Positions 1-50,515 of a DNA stretch of 50,515 nucleotides are shown here, piece by piece. Made by a program: the position numbers and the translations under genes. The notes beneath the pieces are model-generated. The model was not told where the DNA came from and did not search any database. It worked only from the letters and a program-made list of their open reading frames with translations. How positions within the stretch are numbered: the first letter of the stretch is position 1; each line of letters opens with the position of its first letter. Source of the DNA: Hydrogenophaga sp. (GTDB lineage: Bacteria > Pseudomonadota > Gammaproteobacteria > Burkholderiales > Burkholderiaceae_C); contig DYIC01000004.1 of assembly GCA_020723845.1 (NCBI GenBank), positions 19,247-69,761 of the forward strand, written 5' to 3'.

Positions 1-1025
1 CGCAGTGGAGCGCGACGGCGACCCTCGATCGTTTCAGCGTGTCGCTGCGCACGCTGACCCGCCCCGATCTGCTGGAGGGGGCCGTGGCGTTGGCGGCGCG
101 ACAATTGGCCGCGCCAGCCTTCGATGCAACGGTTTGGGCGCGTGAGCGCGAACGGTTGGTGGCGGCGTGGCGCGAGGCGCAGACGCAGCCCGACACCGTC
201 GCGCGTCAGCACTTCCATCAGGCCGTCTATCGGGGGCACCCCTATGGCCAGGAAGCCACGCCCGAGACCTGGACTGCCATCGACCGTGCGGCGCTCCAGG
301 CCTTTTACCGGCGCCATGTGCGCCCCTGCGACGCGCGCGTCACGGTCGTGGGGGCGGTGACACGCGCGCAAGCCGACGCGATTGGCGAGCGCTTGCTGCG
401 CGGACTGGCGCCGCACGGCTGCACGCCGCTGCCTGCCGTGCCGGAAGTGGCGCCGCTTGCGCAAGCGCAGACGCTGTCCGTGCCCTTCCCGGGCGCGGCG
501 CAGGCGCAGGTCTGGGTGGGGGCGCCCGGTATCGCGCGCAACGATCCGGATTTTCTAGCGCTGCAGCTGGCCAACCACATCCTGGGCGGCGGGGGCTTTA
601 CCTCGCGCCTGATGCGCGAGATCCGCGAGCAGCGCGGGCTGACTTATGGCGTATACAGCTACTTTCTGGCCGGGCGGCACGCCGGTGCGTTTACCGTGGC
701 GCTACAGACCCGGCCCGAGCAGGCCGCGATCGCGGTGCAGTTGGTGCACGAGTCGCTGCGGCGCTTCACGCGCGAGGGGCCGACCGACGACGAGCTGGCC
801 GCGGCCAAGGAGGCGCTCATCAACGGCTTTGCGCTGCGGCTGGACAGCAACCGCAAGGTGCTCGATCAGGTGGCCGCGATCGCGTGGTCGGACCTGCCGT
901 TGGACGAGCTCGAGACCTGGACCGCGCGCGTGGGCGCGGTCGACCGTGAGACCCTGATGCGCGCGTGGCGCCGTGTCATCGACCCGGATCGGATGGTGAC
1001 CGTGGTCGTGGGAGGGCAGCCGTGA
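1..1025 (+). CDS. M16 family peptidase, C-terminal part (5' end outside window)
   Basis: The reading frame is open from the first base of the window, so the gene starts upstream and only about 341 residues are visible. The family consists of two-domain zinc peptidases and their non-catalytic partners of the PqqL/mitochondrial processing peptidase type. The visible part contains the second-domain signature GGGGFTSRLMREIREQRGLTY, with the conserved Arg and Tyr that position substrate in M16 enzymes. The HxxEH zinc motif, if there is one, would lie before the window, so this could be a catalytic or a non-catalytic subunit. Its TGA stop overlaps the GTG start of rsmD (GTGA), so the two genes are translationally coupled. 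No internal start is needed, because homology-like sequence runs right to the window edge. Confidence 0.85.
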   Translation, partial: QWSATATLDRFSVSLRTLTRPDLLEGAVALAARQLAAPAFDATVWARERERLVAAWREAQTQPDTVARQHFHQAVYRGHPYGQEATPETWTAIDRAALQAFYRRHVRPCDARVTVVGAVTRAQADAIGERLLRGLAPHGCTPLPAVPEVAPLAQAQTLSVPFPGAAQAQVWVGAPGIARNDPDFLALQLANHILGGGGFTSRLMREIREQRGLTYGVYSYFLAGRHAGAFTVALQTRPEQAAIAVQLVHESLRRFTREGPTDDELAAAKEALINGFALRLDSNRKVLDQVAAIAWSDLPLDELETWTARVGAVDRETLMRAWRRVIDPDRMVTVVVGGQP

Positions 1026-1629
1026 CGGGGCGCGCGCGCCGCACGTCGCCCACGGGCGAGGTGCGCATCATTGGTGGGCGCTGGCGCCGCTCGCGCCTGC
1101 CGGTGGGCGACGTGCCTGGGCTGCGCCCGACCCCGGACCGCGTGCGCGAAACCCTGTTCAATTGGCTGGGGCAGGACTTGAGCGGTTGCCGCTGCATCGA
1201 TGCCTTTGCCGGCAGCGGCGCGCTGGGGCTGGAGGCCGCTTCACGCGCCGCTGCCCAGGTGGTGCTGATCGAGCGCTCGCCGGCCCTGCAGGCCGCCTTG
1301 CGCGCCAACGTGCAGCGGCTGGGGGCGGAGACGGTGCGCGTCGTGGGTGGCGATGCCTTGGCCGTCCTGGCTGGGTTGCCCGCGGCGGCGTGGGACGTGG
1401 TGTTTCTCGACCCCCCGTTCGACGATGCCCACAGCGGGGGTGAGCGCCTGACGAGGGCGGCGCTGCAGGCCGCGCAGCGCCTGCTGCGGCCCGGTGGATG
1501 GGCGTATCTGGAAGCGCCGCGCGCCTGGGGCGAGCCGGAGTTGACGGCGCTCGGCTGGCGGCTGCACCGCCACTTGCGCGCGGGTGCGGTGCACGCCCAC
1601 TTGTTGCAACCGATGGATAATCCCGTCCC

Positions 1630-1633
<4 letters not shown>
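1022..1633 (+). CDS. rsmD: 16S rRNA (guanine(966)-N(2))-methyltransferase RsmD
   Basis: RsmD methylates G966 of 16S rRNA during 30S assembly, using S-adenosylmethionine. The 203-residue product has an N-terminal RIIGGRWRRSRLPV stretch and RPTPDRVRETLFNWL, both typical of RsmD. It has the AdoMet loop DAFAGSGALGLEA at residues 60-72 and the N6/N2 methyltransferase motif DPPF at 130-133. The chosen GTG start overlaps the stop of the upstream peptidase gene. A longer frame exists upstream, but it lies inside that peptidase gene and adds no conserved sequence. The stop overlaps the coaD start as ATGA. The rsmD-coaD pairing is common in proteobacteria and supports the assignment. Confidence 0.93.
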
Positions 1634-2455
<822 letters not shown>

Positions 2456-2474
2456 GGGCCGGGCGCGTGCCGAT

Positions 2475-3134
2475 TCAGCGCGGTGCCGCGCCGTGCTCGC
2501 CCGCATCGCCGGACGGCGGGCGCTGATCGGCGGCAGAAGGACGCGGTGGCTTGGCGCGCGGGGGCTGGCTGGTGTGGATGGCGCTGGTGGCCTTGGCGAC
2601 GTCGCCGGCCAGCAACGAAGGCAGGGCGCGCGCCGCGCGCTCGATGGCGGCGTCGATCGCCTGCCGCTGCTCCAGCGGCGGTTTGCGCAGCACCCAGTGC
2701 ACCACCTCGGCCTTGACGCCGGGATGACCGATGCCCAGCCGCAGCCGCCAGTAGTCGGCGCTGCCGAGCTGCGCGTGGATGTCGCGCAGGCCGTTGTGTC
2801 CCGCATGGCCGCCGCCGCGCTTGAGCCGGGCGTCGCCCGGCGGTAGGTCCAGCTCGTCGTGTGCGACGAGGATGTGTTCCGGCGCGATCTTGAAAAACCG
2901 CGCCAGTGCCGCCACCGCCTGGCCAGATCGGTTCATGTACGTGGTCGGCTTGAGCAGCCACAGCGGCTGGCCCTCGAATTGGGTACGTCCCACCAGACCG
3001 AAATACGCGCGCTCGGGGTGCAGCGTGACGCGCAGGTCCTGCGCGACGCGGTCGATCCACCACCACCCCGCGTTGTGGCGGGTGTCTTCGTATTCCGGGC
3101 CTGGGTTGCCCAGGCCGACCAGCAGCTTGATCAT
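2475..3134 (-). CDS. pth: Peptidyl-tRNA hydrolase
   Basis: Pth cleaves the ester bond of peptidyl-tRNAs released from stalled ribosomes, recycling tRNA. The conserved active-site residues are all present: Asn10 in GLGNPGPEY, His20 in TRHNAG, Asn68 in [10 protein letters not shown], Asp93 in [11 protein letters not shown] and Asn114 in GHNGLRD. At 219 residues it is longer than the roughly 190-200 of most bacterial Pth. The extra length is a basic, Pro/Ala-rich C-terminal tail of about 25 residues. It is the last gene of a minus-strand run and lies behind rplY, with a strong intrinsic terminator between the two at 3176-3198. It may therefore be partly transcribed by read-through or from its own promoter. 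Confidence 0.95.
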
Positions 3135-3175
3135 GGGTGCTTGGCAGGGTGGGGCGCATCAGCACCCCAGACGTG

Positions 3176-3198
3176 AAAAGGCCCGCACGCGGCGGGCC
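3176..3198 (-). terminator. Intrinsic terminator after rplY
   Basis: On the minus strand a GGCCCGC / GCGGGCC stem of 7 bp with a 5-base loop is followed by TTTT. It lies 57 bases past the rplY stop and before the pth start, so it should reduce transcription into pth. Confidence 0.75.
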
Positions 3199-3254
3199 TC
3201 CATTGTGCCGGGTTCGTGGGGCCAAGGGGCGCTCGAGCGCGCCGCCCGCGGGCA

Positions 3255-3881
3255 TCACTTCTTGCCTTTTTTGCCCTTCTTGTCGTCGGCCGCCGCGGCT
3301 TGCGGCGCGGTCACCACTTCTTCCACCGGCTCCACCACCGTGGCGATGGTGGGATTGGGCTTGCCGTGGGTGACGATCTTGACGCCCGGGGCCAGCTTGA
3401 GGTCGCTGGCGTGCAGGCTTTGGCCCTTGTGCAGCTGGCTCAGGTCGACTTCGATGAAGTCGGGCAGTTGGGTGGCCAGGCACTCGATTTCGATTTCGAT
3501 CAGCACGTGGTTGATCAGGCACTTGTCGGTCTTGACCGCGGGCGACTGCTCAGCGTTGACGAAGTGCAGCGGCACCTTCTTGCGCAGGCGGGTATTGTCG
3601 TCCACGCGCTGGAAGTCCACGTGCAGCACTTGGGGCTTGTAGGGGTGGTACTGCACGTCGCGCAGCACGACCTTGGTGGTCTGCCCGCCCAGCTCCATCT
3701 CGAGGATGGAGGTGTGGAAGGCTTCCTTCTGGATGGCTTGCCACAGCGCGTTGTGGTCCAGCTCGATGGCCTGTGGCTCGGCGCCACCACCATAGACGAT
3801 GCCGGGGGTCTTGCCGGCGTTGCGCAGGCGGCGGCTCGCACCCGTGCCCTGCTGTTGGCGCTCGAAAGCGACGAATTTCAT
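3255..3881 (-). CDS. rplY: 50S ribosomal protein L25 (general stress protein Ctc)
   Basis: L25/Ctc binds the 5S rRNA region of the large ribosomal subunit. The 208-residue product is the long, two-domain Ctc/TL5 form. An N-terminal L25 domain ([18 protein letters not shown], then [10 protein letters not shown]) is followed by the C-terminal beta-rich TL5 domain and a Lys-rich tail KKGKKGKK. The start chosen is the ATG of MKFVAFER, which has GGAG a suitable distance upstream. An ATG 18 bases earlier is in frame but has no ribosome binding site, and homologues begin at MKF. The gene lies between prs and pth, as in most beta- and gammaproteobacteria, and is bracketed by intrinsic terminators on both sides. 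Confidence 0.94.
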
Positions 3882-3934
3882 CTCGATGACTCCAAACATG
3901 CGTGGGGTGACCGCGACCAGTGCACCCCGGTTGC

Positions 3935-3955
3935 AAAAAACCGCCCGCTGGGCGG
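3935..3955 (-). terminator. Intrinsic terminator after prs
   Basis: Read on the minus strand, CCGCCC-AGC-GGGCGG (6 bp stem, 3-base loop) is followed directly by TTTTTT. It stands about 53 bases past the prs stop and 53 before the rplY ATG, so rplY probably has its own promoter as well as receiving read-through. Confidence 0.8.
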
Positions 3956-3962
3956 CGAATGA

Positions 3963-4010
3963 CCGGATGCCGCGTCAGCGCCGCATCCGGGGTGACGCCT
4001 CGCGGCGTCA
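3963..4010. repeat. Two tandem hairpins at the prs 3' end
   Basis: There are two perfect inverted repeats. CCGGATGC (3963-3970) pairs with GCATCCGG (3983-3990) around a 12-base loop. TGACGCC (3993-3999) pairs with GGCGTCA (4004-4010) around a 4-base loop, and the second arm contains the prs stop codon. Neither has a T-tract of its own; the terminator at 3935-3955 follows. They may protect the 3' end of the prs mRNA. Confidence 0.6.
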
Positions 4011-4982
4011 GGCCTGGTTTTCCATCTCCGCCAGAAACTCCATGACCGAGTCGCCGCTGGCGATGCGGGCGATGGTCTCGGCCATCAGTGGTGCGACGGT
4101 GAGCGCGCGGATCTTGCCGCAGGCACGGGCCGCATCGCTGAGCGGGATGGAGTTGGTCACGACCAGCTCGTCGAGCGCATCGCCACGCGCCACGCGCTCG
4201 ACCGCCGGGCCGGACAAAATCGGGTGGGTGACGTAGGCAAACACCTTGGCCGCGCCGCGCTCCTTGAGCACCTCGGCGGCCTTGACCAGGGTGCCCGCGG
4301 TGTCGACCATATCGTCCATGATGACGCAGTGGCGGCCCTCGATGTCACCGATGACGTGCATGACCTCCGACACGTTCGGTTTGGGACGCCGCTTGTCGAT
4401 GATGGCCATGTCGCAGTCGAGCTGCTTGGCCAGCGCCCGCGCGCGCACCACGCCGCCGACATCGGGCGAGACGACCAGCAGGTTGGGGTAGTTCTTTTGC
4501 CGCAGGTCGCCCAGCAGCACGGGCGAAGCGTAGATGTTGTCGACCGGGATGTCGAAAAAACCCTGGATCTGGTCGGAATGCAAGTCCATGGTGAGCACGC
4601 GCTCCACGCCGACCACCTGCAGCATGTTGGCCACTACCTTGGCGCTGATGGGCACGCGGCTCGAGCGCGGGCGGCGGTCCTGGCGCGCGTAGCCGAAGTA
4701 GGGGATGACGGCCGAGATACGAGCGGCCGATGCCCGCTTGAGCGCGTCGACCATGATGACGAGCTCCATGAGGTTCTCGTTGGTCGGCGGGCAGGTGGGC
4801 TGGATGATGAAAATGTCGCGTGCGCGGACGTTTTGGCCGATTTGAACGGTTACCTCACCATCCGAGAAGCGGCCCACGTGGGCATTGCCCAAGGTGGTGC
4901 CCAGGCATTGGGCGATCTCGGCGGCCAGTGCCGGGTTGGCATTGCCGGTGAAAAGCATGAAATCGGGGGCGTGCGCTGACAT
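4008..4982 (-). CDS. prs: Ribose-phosphate pyrophosphokinase (PRPP synthase)
   Basis: Prs makes 5-phosphoribosyl-1-pyrophosphate from ribose 5-phosphate and ATP, feeding purine, pyrimidine, His, Trp and NAD synthesis. The 324-residue product starts with the class I signature [14 protein letters not shown] and GRFSDGEV. It has the ATP-binding [16 protein letters not shown] loop, the PRPP-binding region with VVSPDVGG and a C-terminal [10 protein letters not shown] loop. An in-frame ATG four codons upstream (4994) is also possible; 4982 was preferred because family members begin about there and GGAACG precedes it. The gene follows tRNA-Gln(TTG) by 39 bases and is probably transcribed with it from the TATAAT promoter near 5170. 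Confidence 0.95.
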
Positions 4983-5021
4983 CGAGCGTTCCATGGTGTG
5001 ACCGGCACTGGGAAAGAGATT

Positions 5022-5098
5022 TGGCAGGGGAGGAAGGATTCGAACCCTCGCATGTCGGAATCAAAATCCGATGCCTTAACCAACTTGGCGACTCCCCT
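5022..5098 (-). tRNA. tRNA-Gln (TTG anticodon)
   Basis: A 77-base cloverleaf on the minus strand. Acceptor AGGGGAG pairs with CTCCCCT, the discriminator is G73 and the CCA is encoded. The anticodon stem TCGGA/TCCGA encloses the loop TTTTGAT with anticodon TTG, which reads CAA/CAG. The T arm GAGGG-TTCGAAT-CCTTC has one G-T pair. It lies between ispE and prs, a position conserved in many proteobacteria. Confidence 0.97.
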
Positions 5099-5136
5099 AC
5101 ACAGGCTCACCGCTGACGCGGCGCGCCCCATGCAGC

Positions 5137-5194
5137 GTTGCTGTGTCAGCAGCAACAAGACTCATATTATAGCGTCTTTTTGCCACCCGACCAG
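5137..5194 (-). promoter_or_regulatory. Probable promoter and leader hairpin for tRNA-Gln-prs
   Basis: On the minus strand a perfect TATAAT (5166-5171) overlaps the last codons of ispE. It has a weak -35 (CTGGTC, 5189-5194) at 17-base spacing. Between it and the tRNA is a perfect inverted repeat GTTGCTG/CAGCAAC (5137-5156, 6-base loop) with no T-run. The -10 is seen directly; its use as a promoter is inferred. Confidence 0.5.
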
Positions 5195-6052
5195 CGGATG
5201 TTCTGACAACCCGTTGCAGATCCGCACCTGCCAACCGTCCGGCCAGTCGGCCTGCTCGACGGCCTGGGCGTCCGCATCGCTGGTGAGCACGGCAAAAACC
5301 GCGCTGCCAGAACCGGTCATGCGGGCCGACAAACCCAGCCGGCCGAGTCGCTGGAGTGCGGCGCCGACGTCGGGACACAGGCGAACCGCCACGGGTTGCA
5401 TCACGTTGGCGCCCCACAAGCACCCTGGGGTCGCGTTGCAGGCGTCAACGAAGTCTTGCATTATAGCGTGCGGCGTGTCGCGTTCGAGATCGGGGGCCTG
5501 GTAAATGGCGGCGGTGCGGGTGCCGGCGCGCGGCTTGACCACGGCGTAGCGCGCAGGCGGCAGCTCGAGTGGGGTCAGGCGCTCACCAATACCCTCGACC
5601 CAGGCGTTGCGGCCGCCCAGGAAGAACGGCACGTCGGCGCCCAGTCGCGCGCCCAGCTCCACCAGCGCGCGGCGTGGCCAGTTCAGGCCCCAGAGGCGAT
5701 CGAGCGCGATCAGCGTGCTGGCGGCGTCACTGGAGCCGCCCCCCAGCCCGGCTTGTTGCGGGATGCGCTTTTCCAGCACGATGTGCGCTCCCAGCGGGCA
5801 GCCGCTGGCGGCGCGCAGCGCGCGCGCCGCGCGCAGGCACAGATCATCCTCGGGCAGCGCGGGCCCGTCGGCGGTGTGCAGATCCTCGCGCGAGAGCTGA
5901 CCGTCGCGGCGCAGCTCGAAGTGCAGTGTATCCGCCCAGTCGATCAGGCGAAACACCGACTGCAGTTCGTGATACCCATCGGCGCGCCGGCCGGTCACGT
6001 GCAGAAACAGGTTGAGCTTGGCAGGAGCGGGGACGTCGAGCAGTCGTTGCAT
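5162..6052 (-). CDS. ispE: 4-diphosphocytidyl-2-C-methyl-D-erythritol kinase
   Basis: IspE phosphorylates CDP-methylerythritol in the MEP (non-mevalonate) isoprenoid pathway. It is a GHMP-family kinase of 296 residues, a normal length. It shows the N-terminal PAPAKLNLFLHVTGRRADGYH with catalytic Lys12, the glycine-rich ATP loop QQAGLGGGSSDAAS around residues 99-112 and the catalytic Asp140 in LGADVPFF. The C-terminal GHMP motif 3 region reads RMTGSGSAVFA. It follows lolB by 8 bases in the same direction and precedes tRNA-Gln. The TPR-lolB-ispE order suggests one transcript, with the tRNA-prs promoter embedded in the ispE 3' end. Confidence 0.95.
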   Translation of the reverse strand: MQRLLDVPAPAKLNLFLHVTGRRADGYHELQSVFRLIDWADTLHFELRRDGQLSREDLHTADGPALPEDDLCLRAARALRAASGCPLGAHIVLEKRIPQQAGLGGGSSDAASTLIALDRLWGLNWPRRALVELGARLGADVPFFLGGRNAWVEGIGERLTPLELPPARYAVVKPRAGTRTAAIYQAPDLERDTPHAIMQDFVDACNATPGCLWGANVMQPVAVRLCPDVGAALQRLGRLGLSARMTGSGSAVFAVLTSDADAQAVEQADWPDGWQVRICNGLSEHPLVGWQKDAII

Positions 6053-6060
6053 GGAAGGGA

Positions 6061-6579
6061 TCAGGGTTGCCAGATCAGCCGCAGGTCGGCCGCTGGGAGC
6101 GGATCGCTGCGCCGCAGGCGCAGCCGTCCTGTGGGCTGCTGCGACAGATCGACCTGCCAGCCCGGGACCTCGTGGGGGACGCCGCGCAACCAGGCAAACA
6201 GCGCGGTGACAGGCACCGGTGTGCCGATCAAGTCGGCGGTGAGCGCATCCAGCCCGTCATAAGGGCGTGGATCTGTGTCGCGTCGCTCGACCCAGGCACC
6301 GCTGCCGTCCCAACGGATCGTGGCCAGGGTCTGACCCAGCGGCGTGGACAGGCGCAGCTCGCCCTGCGCGGGCGTGCCGCTAAGCTCGAAGCCGGCCGAC
6401 CAGTGTTGCGGCGGATCGGTGGCCAGGGACAGCGCCAGCCGTCCACTCCAGTGGGATGCGGCCGATGGTTCAGACGGCGCTGGCGGTGGCGGCGTGGCGC
6501 AGCCTGCCAAGAGGGCGACGGCGACCGCCGCCACCACCCCGCGCCAGCGCGCACGAGGGGACAGCAGAGCCGGACTCAC
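6061..6579 (-). CDS. lolB: Outer membrane lipoprotein LolB
   Basis: LolB receives lipoproteins from LolA and inserts them into the outer membrane. The 172-residue precursor has a signal sequence with a hydrophobic core VVAAVAVALLAGC and lipobox LAGC, so Cys27 should be lipidated. The mature part has the LolB pattern WSGRLALSL near residue 44, then an unclosed beta-barrel with GQTLATIRW and the late LRLIWQP strand. The GTG start overlaps the TGA stop of the upstream TPR gene, so the two are coupled. LolB proteins are poorly conserved, so the call leans on the lipobox, the size and the invariant position before ispE. Confidence 0.88.
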   Translation of the reverse strand: MSPALLSPRARWRGVVAAVAVALLAGCATPPPPAPSEPSAASHWSGRLALSLATDPPQHWSAGFELSGTPAQGELRLSTPLGQTLATIRWDGSGAWVERRDTDPRPYDGLDALTADLIGTPVPVTALFAWLRGVPHEVPGWQVDLSQQPTGRLRLRRSDPLPAADLRLIWQP

Positions 6580-8021
6580 GGTTGGACGCCGAGGCGCTGC
6601 AGCGTCTCGGTCAGGGTGCGGTTGCGGGCGTCAAGGGCAAGGCCCTGACGCCAGACGGTCAGCGCCTCTTCGCGCTCACCCAGCATCCACAGCACCTCGC
6701 CCAGGTGAGCGGCGATCTCGGCATCCGGGCGCTGCTGCATGGCTTGCGTGAGCAGTCGTCGCGCCTCGGGCCAATTGCCCAGACGGTATTCCACCCAGCC
6801 TAGGCTGTCGATGATGTAGGCGTCGTCCGGCGCGCGGCGCAGCGCTTCCTCGATCAGCGCCTTGGCCTCGGTCAGGCGCACGCCACGGTCGGCCAGGGCG
6901 TAGCCCAGTGCGTTGTAGGCGTGCGCGTCGTCGGGTTTGCGCGCGATGACGGCCCGCAGCAGCCGCTCCATCTCGTCGAGCCGACCGGTGCGCTCGGCCA
7001 CCATTGCCAGCTCATACTGCAGATCGGGGTCGTCGGGCGTGTCGCGCAGGGCCTGGGTCAGCACGTCATACGCGGCTTGCGGCTGGTCTTGGTCGCGCAG
7101 CAGCCGCGCTTCGGCGATCAGCAGGCGGCGCCGTTCGTCCGGGCGCGCCGTACGGGTGTGCTGCAGTACCGCGCGCGCCTCGGCCATGCGCCCGCGCTCG
7201 GCCAGTGCTTGGGCATAGCTGATGGCGACCACGGGATCGGTGTCGGTGGCGTTGCGGGTCGCATGCAAGTAGCGCTGCACGAGAGGTTCGGCTTCTTCTG
7301 GACGGCGTTCGAGCAGCTCCACGGCCAGCAAAGCACCCGCGGCGGCGCGCGGGTCGGCCTGGATGGCTTGGCGCGCGGCGTGCAATGCCTGTTCATCGTC
7401 GCCGGCTTGGCGATGCACGCGCCCGAGCGCGGCCCACGCCGCTGCCGAGGTCGGGGCCTCGCGCAAAAAAGGCTCGAGTGCGGTTTGGGCAGCGGCCACC
7501 GCCTCGGCCTTGTCCGACGCGCGCGCCAGCAGCGAGGGGATCACGGCAATCAGCGCAGGGCGTTGCGGCGCCGGGGTGGCGCGTATCCAGTCGCGCAGGA
7601 CCGGGCCCGCCTCGCGTACCCGCTGCAGCCCGAGCAGCAATTGCAGTTCGGTGCGGCGCGCTTCGTCGTCGGCAGGCAGGCGTTGCCGCCATTCACGCAC
7701 CGCGGACAGCGCCGCTTGAGGTGCGCGACCCTGCAGCGCGATTTCCATCGCGCGCCGAAAGAGCTCCGGGTGGCCAGTGCGTCGGGCCACTTCCAGGATG
7801 ATGGAGTAGGCCGCGCCCGGGTCGTGGCGGCGTTGCAGTTCGGCGATCAGCAGTTGATAAAACAGCTCCGCATCGAGCCCCGAGGGGGCGGTGTCGGGCC
7901 TCGACGCTGGTGCGCCAGCGATGGGCAGCGCGGGTTGCCCAGCCGGTTGGGCGAGCGCCGGCGGCAGCGCCAAGCCGGCGAGCAGCCAGAGGATGACGAG
8001 CGGGGAGCGCAGGCGCGGCAT
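6576..8021 (-). CDS. Exported tetratricopeptide repeat protein
   Basis: The 481-residue protein begins with a clear signal peptide (PRLRSPLVILWLLAGLALPPALAQ), which decided the ATG at 8021 over a far longer frame that extends antisense through mutM. The rest is a helical array of degenerate TPR units of about 34 residues, for example AWAALGRVHRQAGDDEQALH, LQYELAMVAERTGRLDEMER, AHAYNALGYALADRG and YIIDSLGWVEYRLGNWPEAR. Such proteins scaffold complexes in the periplasm; no enzyme motif is visible. Its stop overlaps the lolB start by four bases. A TPR gene in this place upstream of lolB is common in Burkholderiales, which hints at envelope biogenesis, but its partner is unknown. Confidence 0.85.
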   Translation of the reverse strand: MPRLRSPLVILWLLAGLALPPALAQPAGQPALPIAGAPASRPDTAPSGLDAELFYQLLIAELQRRHDPGAAYSIILEVARRTGHPELFRRAMEIALQGRAPQAALSAVREWRQRLPADDEARRTELQLLLGLQRVREAGPVLRDWIRATPAPQRPALIAVIPSLLARASDKAEAVAAAQTALEPFLREAPTSAAAWAALGRVHRQAGDDEQALHAARQAIQADPRAAAGALLAVELLERRPEEAEPLVQRYLHATRNATDTDPVVAISYAQALAERGRMAEARAVLQHTRTARPDERRRLLIAEARLLRDQDQPQAAYDVLTQALRDTPDDPDLQYELAMVAERTGRLDEMERLLRAVIARKPDDAHAYNALGYALADRGVRLTEAKALIEEALRRAPDDAYIIDSLGWVEYRLGNWPEARRLLTQAMQQRPDAEIAAHLGEVLWMLGEREEALTVWRQGLALDARNRTLTETLQRLGVQP

Positions 8022-44682: not shown

Positions 44683-44736
44683 CTGGCGCGCGTCGCCTAC
44701 GTAAAATGCAGTGAACGACTGTTGCGCCACGCCACC

Positions 44737-45303
44737 ATGACCATCAAAAGCGACAAATGGATCCGCCGCATGGCGGAGGAATACGGCATGATCGAGCCGT
44801 TCGAGCCGGGCCAAATTCGCGAGGTCGACGGACGGCGCGTCATCAGCTACGGTACCAGCAGCTACGGCTATGACATCCGCTGCGCGCCGGAATTCAAAGT
44901 CTTTACCAACATCCACAGCACGGTGGTCGACCCCAAGAACTTCGACGAGAAGAGCTTCGTCGATTTTCACGGGGACCACTGCATCATCCCGCCCAACAGC
45001 TTTGCGCTCGCGCGCACGGTGGAGTACTTCCGCATCCCGCGCAACGTACTGACCATCTGCCTGGGCAAGAGCACCTACGCCCGCTGCGGCATCATCGTCA
45101 ACGTCACGCCTTTCGAGCCCGAGTGGGAAGGCTATGTGACGCTGGAGTTTTCCAACACCACCCCGCTGCCAGCCAAGATTTACGCCGGCGAGGGCTGCGC
45201 GCAGGTGCTGTTTTTCGAGAGCGACGAGGTCTGCGACGTCTCGTACCGCGACCGCGGCGGCAAGTACCAGGGGCAGCGGGGCGTGACGCTGCCGCGGGCG
45301 TGA
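44737..45303 (+). CDS. dcd: dCTP deaminase
   Basis: Dcd deaminates dCTP to dUTP, the route to dTMP in Gram-negative bacteria. The 188-residue length is standard for the trimeric mono-functional enzyme. It shows [40 protein letters not shown], the [20 protein letters not shown] active-site loop and [20 protein letters not shown] with the catalytic Glu. TAAAAT at 44702-44707 could be a -10 for its own transcription, but no -35 is evident. It is the last core gene before the mobile remnants and restriction system. Confidence 0.96.
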
Positions 45304-45869: not shown

Positions 45870-48386
45870 TCACTTGCCAAGTTCCGCAAACACCGCGTCG
45901 AGCTGGGGATTGCTGGTGATCAACAGCAGCCGCTTGATGGTGGGGGTGTGATTGATCTCCAACCGCACGTAGCGCTCGCCGCCGGCGGTGGACTGCTGGC
46001 GAATCAGCTGAATGCGCCCAAAGAGTGCTCCATGTCGTTCGGCGAACCGGGCCAGCCCAACCGCCTTCTCGAAGTTGTCGTCCAGGTCCGGCCGATGGGG
46101 CTCCAGGATGTCGATCGCATACCCGCTTTCCACCTGCCGAACGATGACGAGATCGGGGAACATCGGCCTGACCTCTCCCCCTGACATGTAGGGCACCTCC
46201 AGCGACCAGGGTTTGCGGTCCAGGTTGCGCAACCAGCCCACCACTGCCGGGTTGGCGAGTTCTTCCTTCAGGACCTCCGCCTCCCATGTACCCAGCTGGG
46301 CCCGGAACTGGCCGTTGCCCTCCACGTACAGATGGCGCTCCCACAGCGTATCCGTGGGTTGTCGCCTGAAGTCGATCGCCTGGGGCAGGTGCCACGGCAC
46401 CTCGGCCGGTTCGGCCGTGGCGAGCCGCAACTTCTCGTAGTTGGCACGGCGATGCTCCTTGAGCTGGTAGATCGCCTTCTTGTGCTGGTCGTACAAGGCG
46501 TTGAAGGCCTGCTCGGCGCGCTTTTCCAATTCGCCCATCTGCGTGGGATCGCGCGCCAGCACAATGGCTTCCACCTTCACGTCCACCGCGTCGCGCTCGG
46601 CGTTGGCGCGCCAGTACTCCATTTGCAAGCCGTGGCTGAATACGCGGCCTGCCTCCTCAAACAGGCGGTCGATGTCGACGCTGGATGCCTCGATGCGATA
46701 GTCCGCTTGCGGCTCACTCACGCCGGTTCCGTTGTGTACGGCCAGGGTGCGCAGGCCCACCTGCGTGATGGCGCGCGCCGCCGAATCGAACTGCCCGGCG
46801 GCCTTCAAAGCGGCCACGCACTCGGCCATCCACGCCACGATCTGCGCCTTGGCCTGGCCCCAGGCCTCGTCGTCGATCCCGTCGAGCGTCAAGCTGCGCG
46901 CCATGGCCATGTAGCGTCGCAGCGGGCTTTGCGCCCGCACGGCGCCCACGCGGTAAGTCACCAGGCCGTCCAAGGCGGCGAACAGGGCCTCGGTGCCCGC
47001 CCGGCGCTGGAGCACCACCAGCTCGCGACTGGAGCCCGTCTCGGCCGGCGGCACGTCCTCCTGGTTGTGCAGTGCGGCCACCACGTTTTGCACCGCCTGC
47101 GTGTCGAAGTAGGGCAGGAACAGATGCACATCGTTGAGCGCGGCATCTTTTTCGATGCGGCGCGCCAGCGGCGTGCGCACCATGCGGCCGAGCAGCTGGG
47201 CGATGTAGGTGTGATCCTCCGCGCGACGGAAAGACATCATCACCTCGGCGCGCGGACAGTCCCAGCCCGTGGACAGGCCCGTCTTGAAGAACACCACGCC
47301 GATCTCCTTGTCCGCATCGATGCGGGATGCCTCGACCCGCCGCACCCGGCGCCCCCCCACGTCCAAATCACCGGCATCGTGCATGGCGTGGGCCACTTCG
47401 CCCTCGTTCAACCGGCGTCCGATGGCGTGCTCGATGACGTTTAGCGCAGCCGCAAGGTCGGTGCGGGTGAGCTGGCGGTCGGTGCCGTTTTCCACCTGCA
47501 CCACCAGAATGGGCCAGACCGTCGGTGCCTGCTCTTCCTGGCAGTAGCGCTGCCACGCCTGCGTCATTTGGTGCCAGCGGCGCGCGGCTTCCTGCAGCAG
47601 GCCCATCTCGGCCGTCGTCGGCGACTCGGGGTGGTGGATCAAGATGCGGTCCTTCAGCAGCCCCGACTCGCGCACCTCCTCTGCCGAGATGGCGACCTTG
47701 TGCACCGTGTGCGGTGCATGTTCCAGCAGGTCCAAAAAGCGCTTGGGTGTGGCGGACACACCGATGACCAGCGGCATCTTCACGAGGCCCACTTCCGGGT
47801 GCCCCAGGAGAAAGCGCTGCATCAAGGTCTGCGCCTCTTTGGCGCCCCGGCCGGACGCCATGCCCCGGTGGGCTTCGTCGATCACCACATAGAAGCGGTC
47901 CGGTATCGCGCGGGCGGTGTTGGTCAGCGTTTCCCAGATGAGGTGTTGGCGTCCGTCACCCCGATTGGTCAGCGGTTGATTGACGGCCAGCTTTTGCGTG
48001 TTGATGAAGTACACGCAGCCGCCCTGCAACTGCGGCGCATCGAAGTGCGCATCGATCGTGATGAGCTGATGGACGCGGTAAACCTTGTCGGACTTGCTCT
48101 CGATCTTCAGCTTCGTCTGCTCGTTGAGCTCCGGCATGTCGGACACCCACAGGATCACGGCATCCCGCTGCGGAGTCCAGTCCAGCGGCCACGCGAGCTC
48201 ATCGTCGGGCTGATCCAGGATGGCCTCGAACAGCGCCGTCATGATGATGGTCTTGCCGCTGCCGGTGGGTGCGGAAAAGGCAATGGCCTGCGGGTTGTCG
48301 GTGCTGGCGAAGCGGCGCGCGGCCGTGAGCTTGTCGCGCAGCTGGTGCAGCGCATCCTTCTGGAAGTCGAACAGCGTGACCTTCAT
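45870..48386 (-). CDS. Type III restriction enzyme Res-like DEAH helicase/nuclease
   Basis: An 838-residue protein with superfamily 2 helicase motifs: Walker A SAPTGSGKT (38-46), DEAH (170-173) in YVVIDEAHRGM, motif III GVSATPKRF, a motif IV-V region with FFKTGLSTGWDCPRAEVMMS and motif VI QLLGRMVRTPLARR. The C-terminal domain resembles a PD-(D/E)xK nuclease. Pro744-Asp745 is followed by Asp759-Ile-Leu-Glu, so the expected Lys is Leu. In Type III systems Res cuts unmodified DNA with Mod. It is the last gene of mod-antitoxin-toxin-res, overlapping the toxin gene by four bases. Its length is somewhat shorter than EcoP1I-type Res. Another helicase-type defence protein is a possible alternative. 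Confidence 0.85.
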   Translation of the reverse strand: MKVTLFDFQKDALHQLRDKLTAARRFASTDNPQAIAFSAPTGSGKTIIMTALFEAILDQPDDELAWPLDWTPQRDAVILWVSDMPELNEQTKLKIESKSDKVYRVHQLITIDAHFDAPQLQGGCVYFINTQKLAVNQPLTNRGDGRQHLIWETLTNTARAIPDRFYVVIDEAHRGMASGRGAKEAQTLMQRFLLGHPEVGLVKMPLVIGVSATPKRFLDLLEHAPHTVHKVAISAEEVRESGLLKDRILIHHPESPTTAEMGLLQEAARRWHQMTQAWQRYCQEEQAPTVWPILVVQVENGTDRQLTRTDLAAALNVIEHAIGRRLNEGEVAHAMHDAGDLDVGGRRVRRVEASRIDADKEIGVVFFKTGLSTGWDCPRAEVMMSFRRAEDHTYIAQLLGRMVRTPLARRIEKDAALNDVHLFLPYFDTQAVQNVVAALHNQEDVPPAETGSSRELVVLQRRAGTEALFAALDGLVTYRVGAVRAQSPLRRYMAMARSLTLDGIDDEAWGQAKAQIVAWMAECVAALKAAGQFDSAARAITQVGLRTLAVHNGTGVSEPQADYRIEASSVDIDRLFEEAGRVFSHGLQMEYWRANAERDAVDVKVEAIVLARDPTQMGELEKRAEQAFNALYDQHKKAIYQLKEHRRANYEKLRLATAEPAEVPWHLPQAIDFRRQPTDTLWERHLYVEGNGQFRAQLGTWEAEVLKEELANPAVVGWLRNLDRKPWSLEVPYMSGGEVRPMFPDLVIVRQVESGYAIDILEPHRPDLDDNFEKAVGLARFAERHGALFGRIQLIRQQSTAGGERYVRLEINHTPTIKRLLLITSNPQLDAVFAELGK

Positions 48387-48682
48387 GGCAGATACCGGTT
48401 GATGTCGAGCGCGCCATGGAAGACGCCGAGGATTTCGACGATGGCTGCATCGCCTCGACGCAGATACGCAATACGGTAGTGACCGTACAGCAACATGCGC
48501 ACCTCGCCCTCGGGCACGACGCGCAGCCGGGTACCGATGTCGGGGAACTCGGCGGCCAGTTCCGCCTTGGCCACGATGCCGTCAACGACCTTGGCAGCCG
48601 CGGGCGGGTTGTCCGCGGCGATGTAACGGTCAATGTCCTCCAGCCAGGCCAGTGCCTCGGCCGTCCACCTCAGCTCTGCCAT
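48383..48682 (-). CDS. ParE/RelE-superfamily toxin nested in the restriction operon
   Basis: A 99-residue protein with the ParE/RelE fold pattern. The N-terminal LRWTAEALAWLEDIDRYIAA is followed by PPAAAKVVDGIVAKAELAAEFPDIGTR and the C-terminal strands VRMLLYGHYRIAYLRRGDA and VEILGVFHGALDI. ParE-type members poison gyrase and RelE-type members cut mRNA; the tail here, ending without a RelE-like catalytic Tyr/His pattern that I can name, favours the ParE side. It overlaps the antitoxin by 13 bases and the res gene by 4. This places a complete toxin-antitoxin pair inside a restriction operon. Confidence 0.85.
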   Translation of the reverse strand: MAELRWTAEALAWLEDIDRYIAADNPPAAAKVVDGIVAKAELAAEFPDIGTRLRVVPEGEVRMLLYGHYRIAYLRRGDAAIVEILGVFHGALDINRYLP

Positions 48683-48876
48683 GCACGGATTCTCCGCAGC
48701 GCCTCGTCATGGCTCACGCTGCGTCCCGCGCGGGCGTCGGCCAGGCCGCGTTCGAGCATGCGCTCGAACGCCAGCTCGCGCAGGATTTCCTCAAAGCTGG
48801 CATCCTCGGGCTGCGCCTCGATCACGGCGCGCAGCACGTCTTTGGCGCTGGGTTGTTCGTTCGCGGTCGCCGTCAT
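48670..48876 (-). CDS. Antitoxin of the ParE/RelE-type pair
   Basis: A 68-residue acidic, mostly helical protein (AKDVLRAVIEAQPEDASFEE, ILRELAFERMLERGLADARA, then GRSVSHDEALRRIRAW). This is the pattern of small RelB-like antitoxins that pair with RelE/ParE toxins; the closing SHDEALRRIRAW is typical. A separate DNA-binding domain is not evident at this length, so autoregulation is uncertain. A near-perfect Shine-Dalgarno, AAGGAGGTG, lies 5 bases before the ATG inside the last codons of the mod gene. The ATG overlaps the mod stop as ATGA. A longer frame in this phase runs through mod and was not used. Confidence 0.82.
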   Translation of the reverse strand: MTATANEQPSAKDVLRAVIEAQPEDASFEEILRELAFERMLERGLADARAGRSVSHDEALRRIRAWQS

Positions 48877-50515
48877 TTCGCACCTCCTTGGTTGATCATA
48901 AAGTTGAGCAGGTAATCCCGGTACAACTGCACCACCTGCAAGCCGGGGTTGCCCCTCCCGGCGGCGTCGCGAACCTCTTGCGCCATCGTCTTGAACGACT
49001 CGTCCGCGTCGGTGACGATGAACACATGCGACAAGCCGGTGCGGCCGCTGATGGCCTGGAGCAGCCGTCCCATCCGCGTCTCGTCGAGCAGCACGACGAA
49101 GTTGCTGCCCTCGGGGGCGAACAGTGCGGGCTCCGGTTCGTTGCGCCTGAGCTCGGGCCGCGGCCCCACGGCGCCGGCCTTGAGCCACAGCAAGGGCAGG
49201 ATCTCGCGGAACGCGCGGCGCAGCGACACGCGCTCGGGGTCCAGAAAGTCCAGCTTGAAGTAGGCGAGATTGGCCGCGAAGCCCTCGGCAATCGGATAGG
49301 TCAAGTTGAACTTGTATTCGCCTTTCACCGCTTGTCCGTCGTCCGTTTTACCGGTGATCGCAGCCCGCAGACGAGGGAAAGTTATCTGGCGGCAGATACC
49401 ATATGCATCCCATTCCGGATCGCCTGGCTGGAACCCCTGCTCGCGCAGGCTGGCAGCATCTTCGGCGGAGACCTCGTTGTTGGTGACGAGGATGCACCGG
49501 CGGCGTCCGCCATCCTCGCGGTTGAGACGAAGCACGGCGTGCGCCGTGGTGCCGGAACCGGCGAAGAAGTCCACGATCAAGGCTTCGGGCTTGTTGGCGA
49601 CGAAGAAGCGCAGCGCATCTTCTACGGCGTAGAGTGACTTAGGAAAAGGGAAACGGCGACCGGGCAGCAGCGCCCGCAGCAGGTTGGAGCCGCCCGCTCC
49701 GGCATTATGCGAGCGCTGGTTCCAGACCGTAACCGGATTTTTCACCCGCTGCACGTCCTCGGCGAATCTGAGAATCAACGCGCCGTTTTCGTCGCGCCCC
49801 AGGACTTCGATCTCGCCGCGCTGGATGCGCTCTTTCTCGGCGTTGCGCAGATAGGAGATTGACCAGCGCTCGCGCGTGCGGGTGTAAGCGCCCAGTCGCA
49901 CAGTACCCTCGGCCAGCCCTTTGCGGGCGGTCTCCGCGCTGATTTGCCAACGACCTTCCGTCCCGTCGGAACGGATCGGCCAGCAGGCGACGAGGCCGGG
50001 CGCGGGCGGCGCGACCGATTCGCGACTTTGGCCAAGCGGGATCGGGTCGCCCACCGAGTGAATGCGCCGTGCGACGGGGTCGACCCAGAATGCATAAAAC
50101 AGGTTCGGGCTGTCCTGTCGCCTAGCGCCTGTGCCGCGACGCAAGAGGCGATTCCAAATATCGATCCTTGTGTCTGTGCCAGGCTCAGCCTCGTTGAGCA
50201 TGTCCCTGCCGTTGGGCACGACCGCCGCTGCGCCGAGGAAGACGAAGAACAGGTACTCGTCGGCGCGGTAAAAGGCTTTGGCGCGCGCCACGCCGCTGTG
50301 GTTGATGACGCTGGTGACCATCTGCACCTGCGCCTCGGGGAATTCCTGCTCCAGCAACATGCCGAGGTGATGAACCTCATGTTCATCTATCGTGACGATG
50401 AGCACCGAATCGGCAGGGTTGAGCAGTTTTTTCGCCAGCCGCAGCCGCCGCTGCATCATGGCCAGCCACTTGCTGTGCCGCCACTGGTCGTTGGCGTCCA
50501 CGTAATCGTTGTTGT
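48873..50515 (-). CDS. Type III-like site-specific DNA-methyltransferase (Mod), 5' end outside window
   Basis: An adenine N6 methyltransferase of the beta class; the frame is open to the window edge, so the gene begins outside. About 547 residues are visible. They start just past the DPPY region: NNDYVDANDQWRHSKWLAMMQR is the conserved segment that follows it. The remainder holds SVLIVTIDEHEVHHLGMLLE, a long target-recognition region (about residues 60-290), then the AdoMet motif VDFFAGSGTTAHAVLRLN and QITFPRLRAAITG. The catalytic-then-AdoMet order is that of Type III Mod. It heads mod-antitoxin-toxin-res on the minus strand. The target sequence cannot be predicted. Confidence 0.9.
   Translation of the reverse strand, partial: NNDYVDANDQWRHSKWLAMMQRRLRLAKKLLNPADSVLIVTIDEHEVHHLGMLLEQEFPEAQVQMVTSVINHSGVARAKAFYRADEYLFFVFLGAAAVVPNGRDMLNEAEPGTDTRIDIWNRLLRRGTGARRQDSPNLFYAFWVDPVARRIHSVGDPIPLGQSRESVAPPAPGLVACWPIRSDGTEGRWQISAETARKGLAEGTVRLGAYTRTRERWSISYLRNAEKERIQRGEIEVLGRDENGALILRFAEDVQRVKNPVTVWNQRSHNAGAGGSNLLRALLPGRRFPFPKSLYAVEDALRFFVANKPEALIVDFFAGSGTTAHAVLRLNREDGGRRRCILVTNNEVSAEDAASLREQGFQPGDPEWDAYGICRQITFPRLRAAITGKTDDGQAVKGEYKFNLTYPIAEGFAANLAYFKLDFLDPERVSLRRAFREILPLLWLKAGAVGPRPELRRNEPEPALFAPEGSNFVVLLDETRMGRLLQAISGRTGLSHVFIVTDADESFKTMAQEVRDAAGRGNPGLQVVQLYRDYLLNFMINQGGAK

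Follow-up and report, generated by a model that had tools for sequence, protein, structure and literature searches.

A putative Type III restriction-modification operon carrying a complete type II toxin-antitoxin pair at the junction of its modification (mod) and restriction (res) genes lies at one end of the 50,515-nucleotide stretch of Hydrogenophaga sp. DNA analysed here (the window; assembly GCA_020723845.1, contig DYIC01000004.1, positions 19,247 to 69,761). Mod runs straight into res in most relatives of the operon, and the nearest kin of the pair lie within Wadjet operons, a different kind of defence system. The explanation preferred here, which is held at a little short of an even chance, is that the pair is a portable guest: it would make loss of its host operon costly and might also serve as a back-up.

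The four genes of the operon are all encoded on the minus strand: i) mod (48873-50513), the 3' part of a Type III DNA methyltransferase gene; ii) the antitoxin gene (48670-48876; 68 amino acids, aa); iii) the toxin gene (48383-48682; 99 aa, ParE/RelE superfamily); and iv) res (45870-48386), which encodes an 838 aa Type III restriction subunit, a helicase-nuclease. An earlier note on this DNA described genes running in one direction with overlaps of 4, 13 and 4 bases, and the sequence reads exactly so: the mod stop overlaps the antitoxin ATG (48873-48876), the antitoxin and toxin genes share 48670-48682, and the toxin stop overlaps the res ATG (48383-48386). A complete pair is therefore placed between modification and restriction genes on the same strand of one putative operon. 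Only 546 codons of mod, an open frame, are visible since the window stops at the contig end (contig C11) and the 5' end of the gene lies beyond it. The complete gene has 724 codons in the near-identical operon of a second genome, Tepidimonas sp. MAG_5 (locus L009, apparently the same assembly as genome G307). Mod matches Pfam N6_N4_Mtase (PF01555, E 1.3e-13) and PADLOC MTase_III (E 4.5e-148; nearest model PDLC03645), and shows the motifs of an amino-methyltransferase, FAGSGTT within the window and DPPYNT in the full-length L009 gene. Res matches Pfam ResIII (PF04851, E 3.2e-14) and PADLOC REase_III (best E 9.6e-9), and its translation contains the superfamily 2 helicase motifs TGSGKT and DEAH. 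The Res C-terminus (FPDLVIV..IDILEPH) is partly conserved in a four-sequence alignment, and the usual PD-(D/E)XK lysine is not evident in it.

The pair is a derived insertion, as judged from the mod-res junctions of Res relatives. A Res alignment scan with one genome per species was used, in which the best 80 of 534 relatives were kept; the junction was judgeable in 76 of these (all but L015, L031, L032 and L056). Mod runs directly into res in 71 of the 76, six of them judged by eye (L020, L051, L066, L071, L073, L074) and 65 by script, and in 40 of the script-judged rows the two genes share exactly 4 bases. The junction is occupied in the remaining five, by the present pair in a single row (L009), by a BRO-domain gene (L033), by a KilA-N gene (L029) and by non-coding repeats (L016, L017). 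These repeats, at 3342-3576 of L016 and 1057-1442 of L017, belong to two related methanotroph operons. Since the junction is direct in 71 of 76 relatives, an ancestral place of the pair in this Type III branch was rejected. The combined operon described in the earlier note stands in its anatomy and nesting; it is not, for the same reason, a conserved four-gene design. In a Res tree of 27 rows, the two operons with the pair are sister to five with a direct junction, and the seven together have a support of 100/100; the nearest direct relatives have a mod tail that is absent from the window mod. Outside this count, direct junctions were also seen in one genome of the order (G028) and in L138, L139 and L141. 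Three of 29 plasmid records were looked at, two with a direct junction (L006, L008) and one in which mod and res are separated by a 189 aa gene without a Pfam family (L007). Three of eight viral-contig loci were judged (L089-L091) and all are direct; L090 seems to be on the same contig as L045.

Such rarity is what would be expected of a selfish hitchhiker, an ordinary pair that landed in the junction and persists by its own addiction with no role in restriction. Type III operons would lie in often-rearranged islands, and inserts that spare both mod and res would be the ones to survive. The pair is found in two of the 11 genomes of the genus and in one of the 76 judgeable relatives, and non-coding repeats, too, occupy the junction in L016 and L017. 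Further evidence on both sides comes from the relatives of the pair, described below; with all of it taken together, this alternative is regarded as possible and as less probable than the guest explanation.

Comparison within the genus locates the ends of the insert. Res was found in four of 11 genomes, and one of them, G301, supplies an empty site: its open 736-codon mod ends in NFMINQHQDRAAGHTDTQGARA and is followed by res through an ATGA overlap. The window mod ends in NFMINQGGAK. The cassette has thus taken the place of the variable mod tail, and with that tail went the stretch that carries the res ribosome-binding site in relatives. The inserted cassette would span 48387-48890 on the minus strand (ribosome-binding site, antitoxin and toxin), with approximate ends drawn from G301 and from the junctions of direct relatives. 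Res is open in both pair-bearing operons, whereas it is in pieces in G301, which has no pair, and a remnant alone is left in G302. An open res with the pair and a broken one without it fits guarding, in tiny numbers. In G301 (L134, L135) mod is open and the res pieces lie on two contigs, with transposase-like sequence, recognised by eye, at the breaks.

The antitoxin ribosome-binding site, AAGGAGGTG (48881-48889, minus strand), lies within the mod 3' end and pairs with the 16S tail at -15.1 kcal/mol. This is beyond the first percentile of 500 random 17-mers (mean -4.1, first percentile -12.5, minimum -16.4 kcal/mol), and the exceptional strength claimed for this site is thereby borne out. The window res scores -5.0 kcal/mol, near the random mean, and has no clear ribosome-binding site of its own; the corresponding values are -6.6 to -10.7 kcal/mol in eight near direct-junction relatives (L010-L014, L018-L020) and G301. 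No sigma-70-like promoter was found by a consensus scan of 48350-50515.

In the preferred explanation, the pair was inserted as a seamless cassette into the mod-res junction. It would lack a promoter of its own and be made from the operon transcript, and res would now be translated by coupling to the toxin gene. When the operon is lost or silenced, a labile antitoxin would be expected to fall before the toxin. Cells would then be poisoned either on losing the operon or when an invader shuts down its expression. The pair may thus guard the operon against loss, and perhaps provide a last-line abortive response.

The two small proteins look like a conserved pair. The toxin scores 59.6 bits against the ParE_toxin family (PF05016, E 4.6e-16; cut-off 23), in agreement with the ParE-like label of the earlier note. 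Its single-sequence fold was poor (mean predicted local distance difference test score 53.4) and was not used. The antitoxin has no Pfam family above cut-off, NCBIfam gave no match, and no PADLOC model matches either protein. The best match of the antitoxin in PDB is a RelB antitoxin at E 0.015, a weak match, so the "RelB-like" half of the earlier label is weakly supported by sequence, and the "ParE-like" half holds. A homologous antitoxin gene lies upstream of the toxin gene in all 14 nearer relatives and in the Wadjet copies (L199, L210), but beside the toxin in only two of 14 more distant loci (L120-L133). A small co-directional antitoxin gene directly upstream, conserved together with the toxin, is the arrangement of a type II pair. 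The 13-base antitoxin/toxin overlap was considered as an adaptation to the operon, which was rejected since the same overlap is present in 12 of the 14 relatives that lie outside Type III and Wadjet operons.

The same alignments bear on whether the pair works at all. It might be dead cargo, weakly expressed or inactive, its frames being kept because polar damage to res is selected against. The toxin, which agrees with 38 of the 44 columns conserved among 14 relatives, departs from the other six, as decay would predict; but neither frame is interrupted, the antitoxin departs from just one of its 19 conserved columns (18 kept) and is preceded by a very strong ribosome-binding site, which makes dead cargo a very improbable explanation.

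The relatives of the toxin place the pair in a second kind of defence operon. The class (369 genomes, of which 31 gave matches at E up to 1e-8) and the order (399 genomes, nine at E up to 1e-15) were searched, both counts including the window genome. The nearest relatives found are toxins of 73-76% identity from two genomes of one genus, where they lie between jetB and jetC of Wadjet operons. The closest one found (G201) has 76% identity in the toxin and 73.5% in the antitoxin, which is also 68 aa long, and its toxin stop shares 4 bases with the jetC ATG, as the window toxin does with res. The Wadjet genes of G201 were recognised with PADLOC as JetA (3.6e-225), JetB (1.3e-91), JetC in two parts (1.1e-98 and 1.2e-135) and JetD (1.1e-152). 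The second genome, G1133, has the pair between jetB and an uninterrupted jetC, with a toxin 92% identical to that of G201; in all, two of the 23 genomes of this genus have the toxin. The 105 genomes of that family yielded 12 Wadjet loci: the pair is present in two and jetC starts at or within the end of jetB in seven, with a short gap without a recognised gene in one and other genes after jetB in two. In another Wadjet operon (L221, G1128:C191, 2151-3623), the gene after jetB is likewise joined by ATGA and resembles, by eye, a STAND/NACHT-type ATPase rather than jetC. The split of jetC in G201 is due to a two-gene insert (L207, G201:C124:23500-32257, reverse complement, 3420-6953), consisting of an AAA ATPase that matches the PtuA and AriA models and a 297 aa gene that no PADLOC model matches, which looks as though one defence system had landed within another.

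A tree of 24 pairs joins the two Type III and two Wadjet copies in one clade (support 100/99) on a long branch. For this tree 26 rows were tried; L120, where no pair was found, and L204, with an interrupted toxin, were dropped, L118 was kept in shortened form, and L121-L133 and L206 were left out. All four members of the clade are inside defence operons of two unrelated kinds, each time just upstream of a large ATPase gene (res in Type III, jetC in Wadjet). An antitoxin of 68 aa was dropped as a marker of the clade, which is defined by the tree and not by antitoxin length because L113 and L107 read as 68 and 69 aa.

The other 20 pairs are not inside defence operons as far as looked at, one of them being beside cas3. 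That pair, a more distant relative (L116, G479), precedes cas3 of a Type I-C CRISPR operon on the same strand, at a distance of about 105 bases (L185, G479:C54:10000-25000, ~4426-7277). Most of the other toxin relatives looked at adjoin unrelated genes, as expected of an independent hitchhiker; the nearest kin of the window pair lie once more inside a defence operon, which speaks against one. No window-like mod or res was found within 1.5 kb of the class loci except the window's own, and no mod, hsd or Wadjet family is among the 25 families listed out of 57 Pfam families for 35 flanking reading frames at 15 loci; ten of these frames were read singly and included one helicase, at the cas3 locus of L116. 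In plasmids, the window toxin has no match at 1e-10 and the pair DNA none at 1e-5, and the G201 toxin at 1e-5 matches 70 records, all under 60%. The window toxin has 35-38% matches in five Vibrio phage records, and the viral-contig scan found no relative.

The mod-res junction of a second Type III branch (PADLOC PDLC03641) behaves as a slot for other toxin genes. A scan of 398 genomes of the phylum found matches in 60 of them, at 67 places if the window's own is counted; of the 30 loci fetched, 27 were judgeable (all but L147, L168 and L170). Mod is directly before res in 14 of the 27 and the junction is occupied in 13 (L172-L184), several of which come from the same families and are not 13 independent events. 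The inserts are Fic (two), RhuM alone or as a remnant (four), a helper gene with Doc (two, one also with RhuM), MNT-HEPN (two), an AlbA-like ATPase by eye (one), a BRO/DinD-like gene by eye (one) and a 624-base gap without a recognised gene (one). One of the MNT-HEPN inserts has an interrupted HEPN frame together with UPF0175 and DUF3368, and the other has a second mod and RhuM; MNT-HEPN is an established type of toxin-antitoxin pair (PMC12988326, PMC4621449). Toxin or toxin-antitoxin genes thus occupy the junction in 10 of the 27 judgeable operons, that is in 10 of the 13 occupied ones, which speaks against the hitchhiker alternative. The window toxin was not seen in these junctions, where no profile search was aimed at other ParE relatives. 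In L172 the MNT gene, the interrupted HEPN frame and the UPF0175/DUF3368 pair follow one another, and overlaps of 4 bases occur where the series meets mod, where it meets res and between UPF0175 and DUF3368. In L145 mod and res are separated by a gap of 2 and mod holds a stop.

The earlier note had held that finding the pair here in one genome only, with mod and res adjacent in all relatives, would make it a chance insertion. The situation found comes close to this, the pair being at this position in two genomes of one genus. The conclusion does not follow, because the kin of the pair nest in Wadjet operons and toxin genes fill 10 of 27 second-branch junctions. The clade (100/99) in Wadjet operons and the occupation of 13 of 27 second-branch junctions likewise make a single accidental event less probable.

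That toxin-like genes recur at Type III junctions is also what a dedicated back-up would predict. By analogy with PrrC and DarTG2, an invader that blocks the restriction enzyme or host expression would set the toxin free, and the arrangement would have been selected for phage defence rather than for stability of the operon. Precedents are seen in the available parts of two papers, a DarTG2 pair between hsdS and hsdR (PMC12255303) and the hypothesis of immunity-suicide coupling (PMC3506569). However, there is no sign of contact between Mod or Res and the pair, the toxin has its own antitoxin, unlike PrrC, and the data do not separate a back-up from addiction. A dedicated back-up is therefore considered unlikely, less so than dead cargo.

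Beyond the guest explanation itself, a broader one may be put forward, more tentatively. The four copies may represent a clade of ParE-fold modules specialised for nesting in multi-gene defence operons, at the start-stop junction before a motor or ATPase gene. As portable guard modules they would borrow host transcription, make loss toxic and put translation of the motor subunit behind that of the toxin. If the clade pattern holds in a wide census, it would offer a natural experiment on why chromosomal toxin-antitoxin pairs exist, namely whether such pairs guard other genes against loss or extend their defence, with the congener G301 as the empty-site comparison.

Several observations weigh against the guest explanation and its extension. 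The functions of the pair are inferred from sequence. The absence of a promoter is the outcome of a consensus scan alone, and that of the pair from nine other genus genomes is the outcome of a DNA search. The weakness of the res ribosome-binding site is a matter of degree, a direct relative (L024) having -5.7 kcal/mol; before res, values of -4.1 to -5.5 kcal/mol are also seen in all of the other four operons with an insert. In the Wadjet copies, jetB and the antitoxin gene are 636 and about 190 bases apart, so that these insertions are not seamless on the 5' side, and the toxin-jetC gap of G1133 is about 106 bases; strict coupling is therefore no rule of the clade. The clade is known from only two insertions, each present in two genomes of one genus, which makes four genomes in all. 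The contrast between open and broken res is one of a single open operon type with two others. Finally, the pair shows no difference in 494 bases between the window and L009, which does not point to selection, since identity is just as high over most of the DNA around it.

Purifying selection on the pair was accordingly rejected as a reading of this identity: the DNA downstream of res is, like the pair, almost identical in the two genomes. The differences between them cluster in mod (49034-49173) and in res (45891-47946; 49 of 2517 res bases), which looks like patchwork recombination. The gene bordering the operon (44722-45303, plus strand; a dCTP deaminase by eye) is matched in 11 of 11 genus genomes. 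It adjoins the operon only in the window genome (G000) and G307; matches in the other nine genomes extend to its end (45303) or barely beyond, so the whole operon is itself an insertion. The window genome has a second Type III-like mod elsewhere (L186, G000:C94:1-6000, 717-3463). Its neighbours, named by eye, are a GNAT-type acetyltransferase gene with a 4-base overlap at the mod start and a zeta-toxin-like kinase gene 3 bases after the mod end.

The classic Type III systems EcoP1I and EcoP15I consist of mod and res alone. The window operon follows the same mod-res logic and adds a toxin-antitoxin pair to it. The general concept of nested defence genes is reportedly treated in a 2024 preprint by Payne et al., on genes embedded in defence clusters. 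The other ParE-family pairs of the class (L105-L117, L119) have toxins of the same family at 43-63% identity, with antitoxins of 60-69 aa. They differ in that nine of the 14 antitoxins are 61 aa long, without the N-terminal extension, and in that no Wadjet gene is near the five tested for one.

Toxin genes in restriction-modification operons have been described before, as far as the available passages of the sources go. PrrC, in the PrrI Type Ic operon, and the HEPN, RhuM and Doc genes reported in a survey of HEPN proteins are likewise toxin genes in such operons, proposed as a second line of defence (PMC3710099, PMC3506569). The window toxin differs from PrrC, a toxin without its own antitoxin gene, in having a separately encoded 68 aa antitoxin. 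A Type I system of Vibrio cholerae contains two embedded genes that make up a separate restriction system (PMC11411939, from the part available). No description of a ParE pair between mod and res or in a Wadjet operon was found in the titles, abstracts and passages covered. Within that literature, toxin-antitoxin pairs inside restriction operons are already in print and a ParE pair in Type III or Wadjet operons is new. The nearest precedent in these sources is DarTG2, whose genes separate hsdS from hsdR in a Type I system on the RRDM island of E. coli E2348/69 (PMC12255303). In both cases a complete pair is placed between the specificity or modification gene and the restriction (motor) gene, a likeness that concerns the order of the genes. 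The two differ in their parts, DarT being an ADP-ribosylating toxin in a Type I operon and the window toxin a member of the ParE/RelE superfamily in a Type III operon.

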